Assembly: GCA_028282145.1 (NCBI GenBank)
Contig: JANQIN010000026.1
Coordinates: 1 to 42,923, forward strand
Source of the DNA: Thermodesulfobacteriota bacterium
GTDB taxonomy: Bacteria; Desulfobacterota; Desulfuromonadia; Desulfuromonadales; Geopsychrobacteraceae
Direction: 5' to 3'
Length of the DNA stretch: 42,923 bases
Of the stretch, positions 10,756 to 40,233 are shown one piece after another. Position 1 is the stretch's first letter. The number at the start of each line of letters is the position of its first letter. The notes beneath the pieces were generated by a model. It made no database searches. It was not told the DNA's origin and saw only the letters and a list, made by a program, of their open reading frames with translations. A program made the position numbers and the translations under genes.

Positions 10756-11571
10756 TTACTGCATATCTTTGGCTTCAACCCAGATAACGGCGTCCTGGCT
10801 CAGCTCTTTACCCTTGTGTTCGGTATCGCTACCGGCACCCAGAGCGCAGAAGCCCCACCAGCCAGCCTTGGGCAGACCGAAGGTGAACTGACCGTTGGCA
10901 TCGGCTTTGATGCCCTGAGTCACGAAGCTGTCCTGAGGGGCGCTAAAGCGCTTCTTGCCCATGGCGTTGGCAGTGATGTCAACGTCGTGGTTCAGGTATT
11001 CCACTTCGATCTCAGCGAAAGGAACGGGCTTGCCGTTTTGCTTGACGATACCGGTGAAGGTGGAACCGGTCCAGATGGAGTAAGGCTTGTTCAGCGGAAC
11101 GATTTCGGCCTTCAGACCCAACTCAGCGTCCCAGTCGGTGGGCGCACCAGCCACATTGACAACCATCTTGGTGATCTGCTGGATGTAGATATCTTCGTTG
11201 CTCTCGTAGTAGGGAGCCGGCTTCATCACGAACAGGTGATCGCCCATGCGGCGAGCCTTGTACGTCGATGCATAGCCACCGGCCGAGTTGGTGGTTCCCT
11301 TCCAGGTGATGGGCTTCAGGGTCGGCAGCAGGTCCTTCTTCTTCCCTTTGTTGATGACATAGAACTCCTCGACCGGAGCCGGAGTCTTGCTGTCATGCTG
11401 CAGGCCCATTTCCATGGTGTGCTCATCGGCGAAGGGGTGGTTAAACACGTGGCGCAACTCAATGACGCTCGGCTTTTCCAGAGCCGAATTAGGGGTGTAC
11501 ACCATCTGGAAATGGGCAAGTGCGTTACCGGCAACCAGGGCGAAAATAAAAACCATTATCAACTGCTTCAT
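10756..11571 (-). CDS. Secreted DUF4198 protein (NikK-like metal transport accessory)
   Basis: 271 residues with a clear signal peptide ending NALA, so the mature protein would begin HFQMVYTP. DUF4198 proteins are periplasmic, made of Ig-like beta domains, and occur with ECF nickel/cobalt transporters (NikK) and other metal importers. Histidines cluster near the mature N-terminus (RHVFNHPFADEHTME, GLQHD), as expected for a metal ligand set. GAAGGAG precedes the start. It lies after feoB and the small secreted gene in the same orientation, so a role in delivering metal to FeoB is plausible. Family membership is likely; the metal is not known. Confidence 0.82.
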   Translation of the reverse strand: MKQLIMVFIFALVAGNALAHFQMVYTPNSALEKPSVIELRHVFNHPFADEHTMEMGLQHDSKTPAPVEEFYVINKGKKKDLLPTLKPITWKGTTNSAGGYASTYKARRMGDHLFVMKPAPYYESNEDIYIQQITKMVVNVAGAPTDWDAELGLKAEIVPLNKPYSIWTGSTFTGIVKQNGKPVPFAEIEVEYLNHDVDITANAMGKKRFSAPQDSFVTQGIKADANGQFTFGLPKAGWWGFCALGAGSDTEHKGKELSQDAVIWVEAKDMQ

Positions 11572-11614
11572 AAAAAAACTCCTTCTCTCTACACGAATGA
11601 TTTAAGCGGTTAGA

Positions 11615-11926
11615 TTATTCGACGATGTCCTTACCGTCGACATAGACTGCATGACCTTCACCAGCGTTGAAGACCGCCTGGTATTTACCGGAGGGCTTCT
11701 TGAAGTTTACTTCACTGTACTCGTTCATTTTGGTTTTGAGGATCACCTTACCGTTCTGCTCGACACGAAATTCGACACCGCTGGCGCTGCTGCCGTCGCT
11801 GAAACCGCCTTCGCAGGTGATGGTACCGTCACCCTCATCAAAGCAAGACATCAGTGCCGAGTGCGCCATGGCCGACGTGGCCGAGAAGACCAACAAGCAA
11901 GCCAGTACAAACAGTTTTTTCAGCAT
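11615..11926 (-). CDS. Small secreted protein (NikL-like in size and context)
   Basis: 103 residues. The signal peptide ends SAMA, so the mature protein of about 82 residues would begin HSALMSCFDEGDG. It has two cysteines (MSCFDEG...ITCEGG) that could form a disulfide, and a beta-rich body (GVEFRVEQNGKVILKTKMNEY) resembling a single Ig-like or CopC-like domain. The start overlaps the end of feoB by 7 bases, and AGAAAGGG lies upstream inside feoB. Size, secretion and position before a DUF4198 gene recall NikL of nickel ECF systems, but I cannot confirm homology by eye. Confidence 0.75.
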   Translation of the reverse strand: MLKKLFVLACLLVFSATSAMAHSALMSCFDEGDGTITCEGGFSDGSSASGVEFRVEQNGKVILKTKMNEYSEVNFKKPSGKYQAVFNAGEGHAVYVDGKDIVE

Positions 11927-14373
11927 TGTTCTAACCCTTTCTCCATTTTTCCGACATGCCAGCCGGAGCGTTTTGTTCTTAAGAAACCCAAAATCAGTGT
12001 CGTCAGTACAACGGCGATATAGAAGTTACGCATCATCTCCGCACCGGTCCAACCCAGGGTCAACGCCAGGCTGAAGGCCGCGGTGGAAAGACCGATCCCC
12101 AGAGCAATGGGGAAGAAGATGGCAAACAGCATCCAGCGATACGAATTGGCCTGCAGCCGGACCACCACCATGGTAGCGATACACGGGGGCGTCAGAATCA
12201 TAAACAGCAACATCGACGAGGCATGAATCGGCGTGTAGGCCCCATCCTGAGCAAAGGCCTCTTCAGGGCTCAGGTCCGACTTACCTTTCTCATAGATCGA
12301 CCCCAGGGTCGCGACGGCACTCTCTCGTGCCGCAAAGGAGCTTAAGAAAGCAACGTTGATCCGCCAGTCAAACCCGGCATAGGTAGTCAACGGCTCCAGC
12401 GCACGACCGAACATGCCGAGGAAGGAGTTGCGGATCTTCTCGCTTTTGATCGCAATCTGTAGACGCTTATTGACCTTGGACAGTTTACGTAACTGACGAT
12501 TTAACTGTTTCGCCTCTTTATTGTCCGGACGCACCAACGGGAACAACTGGGGATTTTCAGCCAGATACCTGGCATCCATACCCGCGACCGCCTCTTTGCT
12601 TGTAGCCAACATCCGGTTGGCCTTGTAGCTGTCGTAAATTCCCAGCAGAGCAAAGACCTCATGCGGTTCATCGACAAACTCGGCGTACTGGGTCTTCGAG
12701 GCTTTCTTGGTGAAGGACGCAATCGCCTTGTCCCCTTCCTGATGGAAGCCGGCCATCTTTTCGTCGGACACTCCCGGGTACTGCAGCAGTACAAAGAGGA
12801 CGACCGCCACCGCTACTACAATGGTAACCACCTTCTTTACATAAAGCCAGACACGCTGACAGGCGCGGAATAAAACGCCGCGCACCGTCGGGATGTGGTA
12901 GGCGGGAAGCTCCATAACAAATGGAGCCGTCTCATGGTTTTTGAGTACCGTTGAAGTCAGCAACCGGGCAACGATCAGGGCGATAAAAAGGGTCACTGTC
13001 GAGATGTAAAACATCATGATCGACATCTGATCCTTGAAAAAGGCCCCCAGCAACAAGGTGTAAAACGGCACCTTGGCCAGACAGTTCATGTAGGGGACCG
13101 TCAGCACCGTCGCCAAACGGGCTCTGTCGTCGGCAATCCCCTTGGTGGACATGACACCCGGTACGGCGCACCCACCGACAAAGGCGCCACCAAGGACCAG
13201 AGGCAGCGTCGACTGTCCGTGAAGGCCGAAACGCTTGAAGACCCGATCGAGTATAAAGGCCATTCGCGGCATATAGCCCACATCCTCCAGGATGGCGATC
13301 AAGGCAAAGAGGATGAAGAAGATGGGGAGATAATTCAGCAATGCCAACACCGAGTTGGTCATCCAGATACCAAAGTCGGTTATCAGCGGCACTTCGATGG
13401 ACGTCGCCACCGGCAGTATGGAGATAATCTTGTTTTTCACCGCCGCCAGAAGCGGCCAGGTGTAATCGGTCAGCTTGTAGCCATACACGATGGCGAGCTG
13501 GTAAATGGCGCAGATGATGCCGAACAGGATCGGGAAGGCAAGCCACTGGTTGAGGATAATCCGGTCCAGGCGTGCTGTAATCGTATCCTGGCTTCCGCCC
13601 TCCTCCTTGACACACTTGTGAAAGACCACATCGGCATTCTGGTAACGGAGCCGCGCAATCGCCTGATCAACATCCAGATCGTGGGTGCGATGAATCTCAT
13701 CGGCCAGGTCGGTCACCTCGGCAGCAGAAATACCGGTTCGTTCAAGCACAACCTGGTCTTTTTCCAGGGTCTTGATCGCCAGCCAACGTTGGGGAAGAGC
13801 GGTCTCCACCCTGATCCGCTCTTCCAGTTGGGTGATATAGGGTTCGAGAGCATCGTAATCGATACGGAAGGGCTCAACCGTCTTTGTCGCGCTGGCCCGT
13901 CGAACGGCATCAAAAATCTCCTGCCGCCCTTCCCGCCTGGAACCGATGGCTTCAACAACCTCGACGTTGAGCAGTTCAGACAGACTGGCCGAGTCGATAG
14001 AAATATTCCGCCGTTCGGCCACGTCCATCATGTTGAGGACGACAACAACCGGTTTGCCGAGCTCAAGGAGCTGGAAAGTCAGATAGAGACTGCGCCGCAG
14101 GGTGGCAGCATCCACCACATTGACGATGACATCCGGAGCCTCATCCATCAGAAAGGTCTTGGCGACCCGCTCTTCCAGCGAATAGGTACTGAACGAATAG
14201 GTTCCCGGCAGATCAACAAATTCGAATTTGGTGCCTTCAATCTGAATCCGGGCCGTCTTTTTGTCGACCGTCACCCCCGGATAGTTGGCGATGTGCTGGT
14301 TGGCCCCCGCCAGAAGATTGAAGATGGTCGACTTACCGCAATTGGGCTGCCCGGCCAGTGCTACTTTGGTCAT
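11920..14373 (-). CDS. feoB: FeoB-family metal transporter
   Basis: Inner-membrane transporter with a GTPase domain, 817 residues (the family is usually about 650-780). The G motifs are GQPNCGKST (G1), the GVTVDKK threonine (G2), DLPGTYS (G3) and NMMD (G4). The core membrane part follows. The two gate motifs differ from the norm: GGCAVPGVMSTKG instead of the GCNVPAIMATR pattern, and PYMNCLAKVP instead of PFMSC-S/G-AR-LP. A hydrophilic segment of about 115 residues (around 530-645) lies between late transmembrane helices and is longer than usual. It overlaps feoA by 4 bases (ATGA). Iron(II) import is the default call; the changed gate leaves manganese, nickel or cobalt possible. Confidence 0.93.
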   Translation of the reverse strand: MTKVALAGQPNCGKSTIFNLLAGANQHIANYPGVTVDKKTARIQIEGTKFEFVDLPGTYSFSTYSLEERVAKTFLMDEAPDVIVNVVDAATLRRSLYLTFQLLELGKPVVVVLNMMDVAERRNISIDSASLSELLNVEVVEAIGSRREGRQEIFDAVRRASATKTVEPFRIDYDALEPYITQLEERIRVETALPQRWLAIKTLEKDQVVLERTGISAAEVTDLADEIHRTHDLDVDQAIARLRYQNADVVFHKCVKEEGGSQDTITARLDRIILNQWLAFPILFGIICAIYQLAIVYGYKLTDYTWPLLAAVKNKIISILPVATSIEVPLITDFGIWMTNSVLALLNYLPIFFILFALIAILEDVGYMPRMAFILDRVFKRFGLHGQSTLPLVLGGAFVGGCAVPGVMSTKGIADDRARLATVLTVPYMNCLAKVPFYTLLLGAFFKDQMSIMMFYISTVTLFIALIVARLLTSTVLKNHETAPFVMELPAYHIPTVRGVLFRACQRVWLYVKKVVTIVVAVAVVLFVLLQYPGVSDEKMAGFHQEGDKAIASFTKKASKTQYAEFVDEPHEVFALLGIYDSYKANRMLATSKEAVAGMDARYLAENPQLFPLVRPDNKEAKQLNRQLRKLSKVNKRLQIAIKSEKIRNSFLGMFGRALEPLTTYAGFDWRINVAFLSSFAARESAVATLGSIYEKGKSDLSPEEAFAQDGAYTPIHASSMLLFMILTPPCIATMVVVRLQANSYRWMLFAIFFPIALGIGLSTAAFSLALTLGWTGAEMMRNFYIAVVLTTLILGFLRTKRSGWHVGKMEKGLEQC

Positions 14374-14678
14374 ACAAACTCCACCTGGATAAGAGCGGCC
14401 TCGGTTTGACGCAGGGTCACCAGGTAGCCATGAATCTCAATTTCAATAGGATCGCGCAATGGCGCGTTCCGAACCATCAGAACCTCGGTGCCGGGCACAA
14501 AACCCATGTTCATCAACTTCTGCCCCAGCGCCCCGGTTGCGGAGCATTTCAGGATAGTGGCCTTCTGATTTTTCTTCAGATCGGCGAGAGTGGTGGCCGA
14601 CCTTCCCGAACAACCGGAACCACCGGTGCCCGATTCACTGCCACTATCCACTATCTGCTCTACCGGAAAATCCTTCAT
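14370..14678 (-). CDS. feoA: FeoA-domain protein
   Basis: Small cytoplasmic SH3-like protein that works with FeoB, about 102 residues from this start (family 75-100). The FeoA core runs from TLADLKKNQKATILKC through LGQKLMNMGFVPGTEVLMVRNAPLRDPIEIEIHGYLVTLRQTEA. An N-terminal extension of about 25 residues is Gly/Ser-rich with one Cys (SGSESGTGGSGCSGRS). The start is set by AGGAG in front of ATG 14678; a further in-frame start at 14723 lacks this. The stop overlaps the feoB start. Confidence 0.92.
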   Translation of the reverse strand: MKDFPVEQIVDSGSESGTGGSGCSGRSATTLADLKKNQKATILKCSATGALGQKLMNMGFVPGTEVLMVRNAPLRDPIEIEIHGYLVTLRQTEAALIQVEFV

Positions 14679-14798
14679 CTCATCTCCTGATCTCTGTACT
14701 TCACCTGCGTCGGCTGCATTCAACCATTACCCTCTTTCAGGAAGGTCTGGGTGCTGCGAAAATAATCTACTACCATCTTTCTAACGGCCAGACAAGGG

Positions 14799-15051: not shown

Positions 15052-15068
15052 TTGATAACGGTTATCAA
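15052..15068. promoter_or_regulatory. Fur-box-like palindrome upstream of the porin gene
   Basis: TTGATAAC-G-GTTATCAA is a perfect 8-1-8 inverted repeat. Its core TGATAAC-G-GTTATCA fits the classic Fur 7-1-7 pattern (TGATAAT-N-ATTATCA) at 12 of 14 arm positions. A half-site TTGATAAC recurs at 15093-15100. It lies about 65 bases before the porin start and 375 bases upstream of feoA. Confidence 0.65.
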
Positions 15069-15131: not shown

Positions 15132-16133
15132 ATGAAACATATCCTCGTAACCCTTACCGCCCTGGGATTGGTTCTGGCCATCACCTTCCCCGCCTTTGCC
15201 AGCGACCCGACAATTTACAGCTCCATTCGTATGCAGACCTTTTATGTGGACGGTGACGATGGGAGCACCGACACCAAAGATCTGAAGTGGACCCTGCAGG
15301 GGAACACCCATATCGGTGTTGACTTTGAAGTCAGTGACGCTGTTTTCGGGAATGTCGAGCTGGACATCGGTGACGGAGTTGAACTGAGCGCCGCGTTTGG
15401 GGTGTGGGATTTCGGGCCAGGCAATCTCATGATTGGGCAGGATTCCGCACCGTTTGACTGGGGGCCCGATCAAGTAGCCGCAGAGGACAATGATATGGCC
15501 GGGTATGGTTCTCTGGGCATCGATGCCGCGGCTCAAATGACCGTCAATATGGACAACGGCTTATACCTGTCACTTTTTGACAATACCAACGACAATGTCA
15601 ATAGCGACGACATTGAGCTTCCTCTTTTGGCTGTTGGCTTCAATGGTGAAACCGGCAACACTGCTTTCGGTTTTGGTGCTGCCTATACCACCTACGAGAA
15701 AGCCGCCGGCATGGATGCCAATACTTGGTTGGCCTATGCCCAAGCCGAACAAGGCCTTGGTGCAGTGACTTTGCTGGGTAAAATCTACTACGGTCAGAAC
15801 CTGGGTGAGCTCGGCGGTTATGCCGGCCCCAGTGCCACTTACGATGCGACCGGCGATGAAGACGCCGACACAATCGCAGGCTTCCTTGCTGTGGCCGGTC
15901 AGGTCAACGACAAGGTTTCCTACCTGGCAGCTATTGGGTATGCTACCACCGACCGCGCCGACTACTCGGACGATGATGCACAACTGTCTTACTATGTCCA
16001 GTTTCCTATCGAGGTTTCCAAAGGATTCCAGGTCGTACCCAGTGTCGCTGTTTTCGACAAGCTTGATGATACTTCCGGCAACGACGAAGGGAGCGAGCTT
16101 TACGTTGGTGCAAAGTGGCAGTTTGATCTATAA
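15132..16133 (+). CDS. Porin-like outer membrane beta-barrel protein
   Basis: 333 residues. A signal peptide ends at about AFAS (MKHILVTLTALGLVLAITFPAFA). The mature protein is rich in alternating hydrophobic/polar beta strands, Gly and acidic residues, and ends VGAKWQFDL, consistent with a C-terminal outer-membrane insertion strand. Length and pattern fit a general porin, but I recognise no specific family. AGGAG precedes ATG 15132; an in-frame ATG at 15093 lacks a ribosome site. It is transcribed divergently from feoA under a Fur-like palindrome, so a diffusion channel for cations or iron complexes induced by iron limitation is a reasonable guess. A terminator hairpin follows. Confidence 0.85.
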   Translation: MKHILVTLTALGLVLAITFPAFASDPTIYSSIRMQTFYVDGDDGSTDTKDLKWTLQGNTHIGVDFEVSDAVFGNVELDIGDGVELSAAFGVWDFGPGNLMIGQDSAPFDWGPDQVAAEDNDMAGYGSLGIDAAAQMTVNMDNGLYLSLFDNTNDNVNSDDIELPLLAVGFNGETGNTAFGFGAAYTTYEKAAGMDANTWLAYAQAEQGLGAVTLLGKIYYGQNLGELGGYAGPSATYDATGDEDADTIAGFLAVAGQVNDKVSYLAAIGYATTDRADYSDDDAQLSYYVQFPIEVSKGFQVVPSVAVFDKLDDTSGNDEGSELYVGAKWQFDL

Positions 16134-16148
16134 GCCAAGTCTGAATCA

Positions 16149-16177
16149 AACCTGCCCCGGCACATCCGGGGCAGGTT
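16149..16177 (+). terminator. Terminator-like hairpin after the porin gene
   Basis: AACCTGCCCCGG (16149-16160) pairs perfectly with CCGGGGCAGGTT (16166-16177), 12 bp around a CACAT loop, 15 bases after the stop codon. There is no immediate T-run (CCAGGACTTTTCC follows), so termination may be partial. Confidence 0.7.
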
Positions 16178-16278: not shown

Positions 16279-16307
16279 TTGACATCTTCCCTACTTTCTT
16301 CTACTTT
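16279..16307 (+). promoter_or_regulatory. Promoter candidate for the small RNA
   Basis: A perfect -35 TTGACA (16279-16284) has a 17-base spacer to TACTTT (16302-16307), a weak -10. An alternative -10, TATCAT (16317-16322), lies inside the Fur-like site but lacks a good -35. Either would be blocked by a protein bound at 16306-16322. Confidence 0.45.
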
Positions 16308-16322
16308 GAAAACGGTTATCAT
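16306..16322. promoter_or_regulatory. Second Fur-box-like site
   Basis: TTGAAAACGGTTATCAT differs from the porin-side palindrome at 15052-15068 at only two of 17 positions (an A for T in the left arm and the last base). It overlaps the predicted -10 or start of the small RNA. Confidence 0.55.
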
Positions 16323-16476
16323 ATTCCTGTTCAGTTTTTAACAACGGGTTACTCTTCAGTAGCTTCCAAATGTGGGTAGAATAACGAAAACAGCGTTAAC
16401 GCATCCTCTACGCGGGCTTCTCCTCCTGCGGGGTGCGAACAAGGGTGGGCGGATACATGGTGTATCCGCCCTTTTT
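16314..16476 (+). ncRNA. Probable Fur-controlled small RNA
   Basis: No open frame of note lies here, yet a promoter-like element, three stem-loops and a perfect terminator follow in order. Stem 1 is GGTTACT/AGTAGCT (16347-16353 with 16358-16364, CTTC loop). Stem 2 is GCATCC/GGGTGC (16401-16406 with 16431-16436) enclosing CGCGGG/CCTGCG (16411-16416 with 16425-16430), with a four-base bulge; its loop CTTCTCCT resembles an anti-Shine-Dalgarno sequence. Stem 3 is the terminator at 16447. The 5' end is estimated and could be as late as about 16329. By its control and size it would be a functional analogue of RyhB-type iron-sparing RNAs; this is inference. Confidence 0.55.
16447..16476 (+). terminator. 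Rho-independent terminator of the small RNA
   Basis: GGGCGGATACA (16447-16457) pairs perfectly with TGTATCCGCCC (16461-16471), 11 bp with a TGG loop, followed by T5 (16472-16476). It is too far from the porin stop and too well formed to be its first terminator, since another hairpin lies at 16149. Confidence 0.88.
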
Positions 16477-16595
16477 GTATTGTTGGATTTGAAAGGCTAA
16501 GGTGGCCTTGAATTTCGCTCGCCCATCCAATGGGCTCGTGTCTGCTCTTAATGGAAAGTGGTATAACTTGGAATAGATTGATACAGGAGGTCAGC

Positions 16596-17195
16596 ATGGA
16601 GCCGGAGAAAAACGCAATTCCTGAGAAGACCCGATGCACCTGGTGTCTCGGATCGGATATCTACATCCACTACCACGATACCGAATGGGGTGTACCGGTC
16701 ACCGACGATCGAAAACTGTTTGAGTTTTTGACGTTGGACGGGGCCCAGGCCGGTCTGAGCTGGCTCACTATCCTCAAGAAAAGGGAGGGTTACCGGGAGG
16801 CTTTCTGCAACTGGGATGTGGAAGCAATCGCGCGGATGGGCGAGAAAGATGTGGCCCGACTCAGAGAGAATCCGGCCATCGTCCGCAATCGCTTGAAGAT
16901 CGAAAGTACTCTCAGTAACGCCCGCGCCTACCTGAAAGTCCTGAATTCAGGGAAGACCTTCTCCGACTACCTGTGGCAGTTTGTCGACGGAACCACTATC
17001 CAGAACCGCTGGCAGGACCTGTCCCAGGTCCCGGCCACCACTCCGGAAAGCGATGCCATGAGCAAACAGCTCAAAAAGGACGGCTTTCGTTTTGTGGGGA
17101 GTACCATCTGCTACGCCATCATGCAGGCCGCCGGAATGGTCAACGACCACACCGTCGACTGTTTCCGCCATGCAGATCTTAGTGAGCCGGCCTGA
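16596..17195 (+). CDS. tag: DNA-3-methyladenine glycosylase I
   Basis: Base-excision repair enzyme that removes 3-methyladenine from alkylated DNA, cytoplasmic, 199 residues (family about 185-195). Diagnostic Tag motifs are RCTWCLGSDIYIHYHDTEWGVP at the N-terminus, a zinc-ligand Cys and His set with C-terminal DHTVDCFRH, and LDGAQAGLSWLTILKKREGYREAF in the helix-hairpin region. The start at 16596 has AGGAGG five bases upstream. It is followed closely by a YdhR-like gene on the same strand. Confidence 0.94.
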   Translation: MEPEKNAIPEKTRCTWCLGSDIYIHYHDTEWGVPVTDDRKLFEFLTLDGAQAGLSWLTILKKREGYREAFCNWDVEAIARMGEKDVARLRENPAIVRNRLKIESTLSNARAYLKVLNSGKTFSDYLWQFVDGTTIQNRWQDLSQVPATTPESDAMSKQLKKDGFRFVGSTICYAIMQAAGMVNDHTVDCFRHADLSEPA

Positions 17196-38303: not shown

Positions 38304-39632
38304 ATGAGCACTCCCGAAATTGCCATTGTCGGCGGAGGATTGGCCGGCTGTGAAGCGGCCTGGCAGGCGGCCCTGGAAGGGGCCCAGGTCCGCCTCATCG
38401 AGATGAAGCCCCATCGATACTCAGAGGCCCATGAATCGCCCGACCTGGGTGAGCTGGTCTGCAGCAACAGTCTCCGGGGCGCCGGGATGAACAACGCTGT
38501 CGGTTGTCTCAAGGAAGAACTCCGCCGCTGTAACAGTCTGATTATCGAAGCGGCCGACGCCACCGCCGTTCCCGCCGGTGGTGCCCTGGCTGTCGATCGG
38601 GAGCAGTTCGCCGCCTACCTGACCCGAAAGATTGAGGAACATCCCTCGATCGACCTGGTGCGGGAGGAGCTCTGCGACATACCGGAGGAAGGGACGGTCA
38701 TCCTGGCCTCCGGCCCTCTGACATCCCCCGCCCTATCCGAAAAGATCGCCGCTCTCACCGGGGAGGAACACCTCTATTTCTATGACGCTATCGCGCCCAT
38801 TGTCGAAGCAGACAGTATCGATCTGTCCGTGGCCTGGAAGGCGAGCCGGTACGGCAAAGGGGGGGATGACTACATCAACTGCCCGATGGACGAAGAACAG
38901 TATAAGACCTTTGTCGCCGACCTGGTGGCAGCGGAGAAGGTCCCCACCCGGGACTTTGAGAAGCTGGTCCACTTCGAAGGCTGCATGCCGATCGAGGAGA
39001 TGGCGGAACGGGGCGAGATGACCCTTGCCTTTGGCCCGATGAAGCCCAAAGGGCTCCCCGATCCCCGGACCGGCCGGGAACCCTACGCCGTTCTTCAACT
39101 GCGGCAGGACAACGCTCATGCCAGCCTCTTTAATCTGGTCGGGTTCCAAACCAAACTGACCTATCCCGAGCAGAAACGGATTTTCACCCAAATCCCGGGC
39201 CTGGAAAACGCCCGCTTCAGCCGTCTGGGAAGCATGCATCGCAACACCTTTATCAATGCCCCCACCTGCCTTGAAAACCTACAACTCAAGGCCAGCCCAC
39301 GTCTCTTTTTCGCCGGGCAAATCACGGGTGTTGAAGGGTATGTCGAATCGGCCGCTTGCGGCCTTCTGGCAGGGATTTTTGCACCTCGCTGGCAACGACA
39401 GGAGGAGCTTCCCCTGCCTCCGGCCACCACCGCACTGGGGGCCCTGCTGCATCACCTGCGAGAAGCGGAGGCTGAGAACTTTCAGCCAATGAACGTCAAC
39501 TACGGGCTTTTTCCCAAGCTGGAGGGACGGAAGATGAAGCGGGCCGATCGGCGTCTAGCGATGGCGGAGCGCGCCCTGAATGACCTGGCTCCCTGGTGGC
39601 AACAGATCCTGGAGGCTCGCCATGACGGATAA
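38304..39632 (+). CDS. trmFO: Folate-dependent tRNA (uracil-54-C5) methyltransferase
   Basis: Makes ribothymidine at tRNA position 54 using methylenetetrahydrofolate and FADH2, 442 residues. The FAD-binding start is [31 protein letters not shown]. Conserved cysteines of the family are in [10 protein letters not shown] and [33 protein letters not shown] is the C-terminal FAD motif. AAGGAA precedes the start. It begins a chain of overlapping genes (maf, yggS, gph, MOP-like). It replaces the SAM-dependent TrmA of many proteobacteria. Confidence 0.97.
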
Positions 39633-40233
39633 CGACAGCCAACTGGTCCTGGCCTCCGCCTCCCCCCGACGACGAGAACTTCTGGAACAGGTCGGTCTGT
39701 CCTTTCTCGTGCATCCCAGCCAGGCCGATGAGTCTGAACTGCCCGGTGAAACACCGGAGGAACATGTCATGCGCCTCAGCCGCGTCAAGGCGAAGGAAGT
39801 GGCTGACCGGATGGAGATCCCCGGACGGTTTTTTCTTGGAAGCGACACTATTGTCCTTCGTGATAATGAGATTCTGGGAAAGCCTGCCGATGCGGAAGAG
39901 GCGGCGACCATGCTTCGGTCTCTGGCCGGGAGGAGCCACCAGGTGATTTCCGGTTTTGCCATCGTCGACCGTGCAACCGGCCAGGTCCAGGAGAAGACGG
40001 TCACCACCCAGGTCTGGTTCCGCCCCTTGACCGACAGGGAAATCGATGGCTACATTGCCAGTGCGGAACCGATGGACAAGGCCGGAGCCTATGGTATTCA
40101 GGGATTGGGGGCCTTTATGGTGTCGCGCATCGAGGGCAGCTACAGTAACGTGGTTGGCCTGCCTCTGTGCGAGGTGGTCCAGGCCCTGGAAGCGATCGGT
40201 GCCATCTCTCTCTTTTGTGGGGATATGACATGA
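39622..40233 (+). CDS. maf: Maf-family nucleoside triphosphate pyrophosphatase
   Basis: House-cleaning enzyme that hydrolyses non-canonical or modified nucleotides, 203 residues. Diagnostic pieces are the N-terminal [21 protein letters not shown], the catalytic-region FFLGSDTIV with [11 protein letters not shown], and [31 protein letters not shown] 39622 overlaps the trmFO stop by 11 bases. The frame extends upstream to 39580, but that part lies inside trmFO. The dTTP versus m7GTP/UTP specificity cannot be settled by eye. Confidence 0.95.

Follow-up and report, generated by a model that had tools for sequence, protein, structure and literature searches.

A candidate Fur-controlled small RNA with an anti-Shine-Dalgarno loop near feo and porin-like genes in a member of the Geopsychrobacteraceae

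The window, a stretch of 42,923 nucleotides from a Thermodesulfobacteriota bacterium (Geopsychrobacteraceae), very probably encodes a small RNA that is not translated and is expressed under iron scarcity. It may repress the translation of further genes, as a counterpart, particular to this lineage, of regulators described from other bacteria. This would probably be a new Fur-controlled small RNA, ordinary in kind. The explanation we favour, with a confidence somewhat above even, is that the small RNA has a gene of its own within the Fur regulon and that it blocks translation through an anti-Shine-Dalgarno loop. Comparative sequence evidence supports the proposed Fur box and promoter geometry, and the putative terminator, the missing reading frame and the exposed loop were read from the sequence itself.

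The candidate unit (16279–16476) occupies part of the ~465 bases between the stop codon of a porin-like gene and the start of tag (Table 1). The sequence-only reading had placed it near a Fur-site porin and feo genes, and this was borne out, as a second Fur box precedes the porin-like gene and feoA and feoB lie on the opposite strand. The hairpin 3′ of the porin gene would separate that gene from the RNA gene, and the extended −10 element TGGTATAAC could belong to a promoter of tag's own. A Fur promoter without a gene, the terminator, the porin's own hairpin and the possible tag promoter together make a free-standing RNA the simplest reading of the interval. Two further observations concern the neighbouring genes. 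A DUF4198 protein is encoded behind feoB (10756–11926, minus strand), with a small secreted-looking protein between the two. Three tandem paralogues of the porin-like protein (39–50% identity) are encoded elsewhere in the same genome (G000:C183:3103-6979).

Table 1 Features of the candidate small-RNA locus and its surroundings (positions in the window).
Feature	Position	Strand	Remarks
feoA and feoB, ferrous iron uptake	11920–14723	−	
Second Fur box TTGATAACGGTTATCAA, perfect palindrome	15052–15068	+	5′ of the porin-like gene
Porin-like outer-membrane protein	15132–16133	+	No Pfam match; weak relatives in the order
GC-rich hairpin, terminator-like, no immediate T run	16149–16177	+	3′ of the porin gene; from sequence
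−35 element TTGACA, perfect	16279–16284	+	From sequence; spacing to Fur box common to other promoters
−10 element TACTTT, 17-bp spacing, 3/6 match	16302–16307	+	Phase as in relatives' TATTTT/TATCTT
Fur box TTGAAAACGGTTATCAT (15-base form TGAAAACGGTTATCA, 16307–16321)	16306–16322	+	Overlaps −10 and expected start
Predicted small RNA, ~163 nt	16314–16476	+	Start estimated from the −10
Hairpin 1, loop CTTC	16346–16365	+	P = 0.006 against shuffles (16345–16365)
Hairpin 2, TAACG-AAAACAG-CGTTA, A-rich loop	16382–16398	+	By folding; absent from the sequence-only reading
Hairpin 3, with anti-Shine-Dalgarno loop	16400–16437	+	P = 0.018 against shuffles (16401–16436)
Loop CTTCTCCT, 8 nt	16417–16424	+	Unpaired probability ~1.0; complementary to AGGAGAAG
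Intrinsic terminator, 11-bp stem and T5	16447–16476	+	Stem-loop 16447–16471
TATAAC preceded by TGG, possible extended −10	16562–16567	+	Suggested by motif
tag, DNA-3-methyladenine glycosylase I (PF03352)	16597–17195	+	

The perfect −35 element and a palindrome resembling a Fur site that spans the −10 and the start, both proposed from the sequence alone, were present; the Fur box overlaps TACTTT and the start of transcription expected near 16314. TACTTT was missing from a plain sigma-70 scan because it matches the −10 consensus at just three of six positions, and this weakness was counted against the favoured explanation. It stands in phase with the corresponding TATTTT and TATCTT elements of related Fur promoters, and the distance from TTGACA to TGAAAACGGTTATCA is 28 bases.

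We compared this arrangement with promoters across the order. Among the matches listed for 136 genomes, the box TGAWAACGGTTWTCA occurred at 51 sites versus 2 for the reversed control, and TTGACA placed 16–32 bases 5′ of a slightly looser box occurred at 12 sites versus 0. TTGAC and the box were 28–30 bases apart in 28 of 33 cases, a statistic that includes a locus (L142) not belonging to the order and for which part of the loci were collected with a pattern permitting 21–37 bases, a range wider than the result. The most frequent value, 28, is that of the window, which shares it with 13 other pairs of promoter and box in this comparison. The genes tested behind such promoters encoded FeoA (three), a Fur-family protein (one) and extracellular or periplasmic solute-binding proteins (five), for which the setting suggests iron as the substrate. 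The FUR box of delta-proteobacteria differs from that of E. coli, tTGAAAAcGgTTTTCAT is among the published Desulfuromonas FUR boxes, and porins with FUR boxes have been described in delta-proteobacteria (PMC545781). The box at the RNA locus fits this published delta-proteobacterial form, and the genome encodes Hfq and six FUR-family proteins. On the promoter comparisons and the published box together, 16279–16322 can be read with high confidence as a Fur-controlled promoter, and Fur control of the small RNA, as originally proposed, is strongly supported.

Folding of the predicted transcript recovered the three stem-loops described from the sequence alone, the T5-tailed terminator among them, and added hairpin 2 and an enclosing helix that pairs 16326–16332 with about 16437–16443, which had been missed. 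The whole RNA folded better than its shuffles in two tests (z = −4.4 and −3.2). Without the terminator it did not (z = −1.2, P = 0.13), so the terminator bears much of the stability, and this was counted against the favoured explanation. An anti-Shine-Dalgarno core fell within a hairpin loop in just 25 of 2000 shuffles. After the terminator stem the tail reads T5 and then GTATT. Seven or more T residues at the terminator are described for Hfq-binding RNAs of E. coli (PMC5558911). By that account the T5 tail is too short, which argues mildly against an E. coli-type dependence on Hfq; the Hfq gene that an Hfq-dependent RNA would need is present in the genome.

If the favoured explanation holds, Fe-Fur bound at its box would hide the −10 and the start while iron is plentiful. 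When iron runs short, RNA polymerase would make the ~163-nt RNA from about 16314 to the terminator. The RNA would then show CUUCUCCU in its hairpin loop, pair with AGGAG or AGGAGAAG ribosome sites of some mRNAs and stop their translation, perhaps with Hfq; expression, Fur binding at this site, the block, the choice of targets and the sparing of iron are all inferred steps of this scheme.

Pairing of the loop with ribosome sites had been central to the sequence-only reading. The loop itself stood up, being present, unpaired and rare by chance, while its pairing with real targets stays at the level of prediction. AGGAGAA occurred before ATG 154 times in the genome versus 49 in the control, which makes loop-compatible ribosome sites common. 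Targets were predicted for 1337 crude gene starts, drawn from ~1.34 of 3.24 Mb (~40% of the genome), with accessibility considered on both sides. By far the most used segment of the RNA was the loop, with 59 of the best 100 target sites. The best predicted targets, named by inspection, were ABC transporter, chemoreceptor-like, solute-binding and phosphotransacetylase-like proteins. An enrichment of iron proteins was not visible among them at ~40% of the genome and with annotation by inspection. The predicted targets amount to generic ribosome sites, and this was counted against the favoured explanation. The one attractive target, the mRNA of an IscU-like gene (L223, G000:C93, ~5640, minus strand), had been missed by the crude gene calls and was scored by hand. 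Its ribosome site, GAGGAGAAG, is perfectly complementary over 9 nt to the loop and its neighbour. Folding of the mRNA is predicted to occlude that site, which is why its predicted total of −4.7 kcal/mol fell below ~200 of the 914 scored starts. Within the window, a solute-binding protein gene (39150–39983, minus strand; ribosome site AGGAGAAG) was the third-ranked predicted target.

These predictions leave anti-Shine-Dalgarno action of the RNA evenly poised, and an iron-sparing role like that of RyhB, FsrA or IsrR a tentative proposal. They also bear on the strongest alternative, a Fur-controlled RNA that acts otherwise, through its 5′ end or 16371–16381, by binding protein, or mainly on a single neighbour (the porin mRNA, for example), with an incidental CTTCTCCT loop. 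The lack of a common theme among the loop's targets favours it, as does the use of 16314–16322 and 16371–16380 among the best 100 target sites. However, the loop's dominance among those sites, its full openness and its rarity in shuffles argue for the loop as the acting part, and we rate the alternative as improbable, albeit the best of those considered.

Conservation of the RNA was sought in several ways. DNA searches of 98 relatives gave only short chance or Fur-box matches and no RNA homologue; at the level of the order, the matches consisted of the Fur box alone. A pattern combining Fur box and loop matched only the window and three places elsewhere in the class (277 genomes), and none of its 22 matches in genome_contigs carried a delta-proteobacterial title. 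The sequence-only reading had looked to a covariance search in related genomes: a single-sequence model run over 136 genomes of the order found no homologue in which compensatory changes in the stems could be compared, the next best match having an E value of 0.03, and so speaks neither for nor against covariation. The model matches that were read lay inside open frames with no Fur box upstream and were rejected. Used as a synteny handle, the porin had no relative in genome_contigs and weak ones in the order. The genomes searched did not turn up another species of the genus. Rfam gave no match for the RNA, the RyhB and PrrF covariance models included. The failure to find a homologue by DNA, pattern, synteny or model search was counted against the favoured explanation. 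The RNA is single copy in its genome; a repeat element was rated low. This lack of detected conservation and the single copy also speak for a Fur promoter with a short, terminated and functionless transcript, but the unit is complete from promoter to terminator, its hairpins are well formed and its anti-Shine-Dalgarno loop is exposed, all of which would be hard to square with such a transcript, and we regard this reading as unlikely.

Equally unlikely, in our estimate, is a role of the interval as a leader or attenuator for tag under Fur control, with readthrough of the terminator passing the effect of iron to that gene. In an ORF scan tag followed next on the same strand, its start 274 nt past the Fur box, as a leader would have it. 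However, a strong terminator and possibly tag's own extended −10 intervene, and no Rfam leader reached its gathering score (L20_leader, 18.4 versus 58.7 bits; trpB motif, 19.6 versus 59). At most of the examined promoters of this kind the gene starts within ~120 nt. An mRNA for a very small protein is highly improbable: a GTG at 16372 opens 42 codons and an ATG at 16370 opens four, but both starts lack a ribosome site and the longer frame, the longest present, reads through the terminator, so that the earlier claim of no open frame holds in substance. An own promoter, a terminator and no frame are the sequence features of an independent, trans-acting small RNA, the locus shows all three, and we consider it likely that the locus yields a terminated non-coding RNA.

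Fur-repressed small RNAs are known from several bacteria and include RyhB, PrrF, NrrF, FsrA, IsrR and BrrF. RyhB of Enterobacteria and PrrF1/F2 of Pseudomonas resemble the candidate in being Fur-repressed, independent and terminator-ended, and Hfq is encoded in the candidate's genome; they differ in that no Rfam sequence match links them to it and in its proposed pairing through an anti-Shine-Dalgarno hairpin loop. FsrA of Bacillus subtilis is Fur-repressed and binds the Shine-Dalgarno sequence via a C-rich motif, and IsrR of Staphylococci, also Fur-repressed and composed of hairpins and a terminator, pairs around ribosome sites through C-rich single-stranded regions (PMC9410917). FsrA thus shares with the candidate Fur repression and a C-rich reach to the ribosome site, which in the candidate is predicted; unlike the candidate it has the helpers FbpA/B/C, and no sequence relation between the two was seen. 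IsrR has three C-rich regions and demonstrated targets, whereas the candidate has one CTTCTCCT loop and predicted targets. If the candidate works as proposed, FsrA and IsrR would be its nearest mechanistic parallels; membership of any of these Fur-repressed families is unsupported by sequence. BrrF of Burkholderia, not found outside its own order, and RusT of Caulobacter are further small RNAs of iron starvation (PMC7377471, PMC11005374). Both are unlike the candidate, as BrrF lies 3′ of the Fur-regulated hemP and the RusT promoter has no recognised Fur site.

Fur-controlled small RNAs arise independently and repeatedly in different bacteria, and none was found for Geobacter-type organisms in the open-access literature searched. 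The FUR box and the gene content suggest that the organism studied here belongs to the Desulfuromonas/Geobacter group. It is conceivable, though rather doubtful, that the candidate is the first iron-sparing small RNA under Fur repression in this delta-proteobacterial lineage, independent in origin of RyhB, PrrF, FsrA and IsrR and acting through a single anti-Shine-Dalgarno loop. Such an RNA is of interest because Geobacter-type energy metabolism depends on iron proteins; if real, it would steer metabolism under iron shortage in anaerobes that have an abundance of haem and Fe-S proteins. With a sharply bounded locus and a known promoter geometry, the question is directly testable.

The promoter geometry also has uses beyond this locus. 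TTGACA followed after 28–30 bases by TGAWAACSGTTWTCA marks iron genes order-wide (loci L066–L077 and others). This fixed arrangement could help to map the Fur regulon of the order and provides a handle to seek further such RNAs within it. In the genome studied here, the third strict Fur box (L094, G000:C5:1018-1032) stands before a gene for a Crp/Fnr-type regulator.
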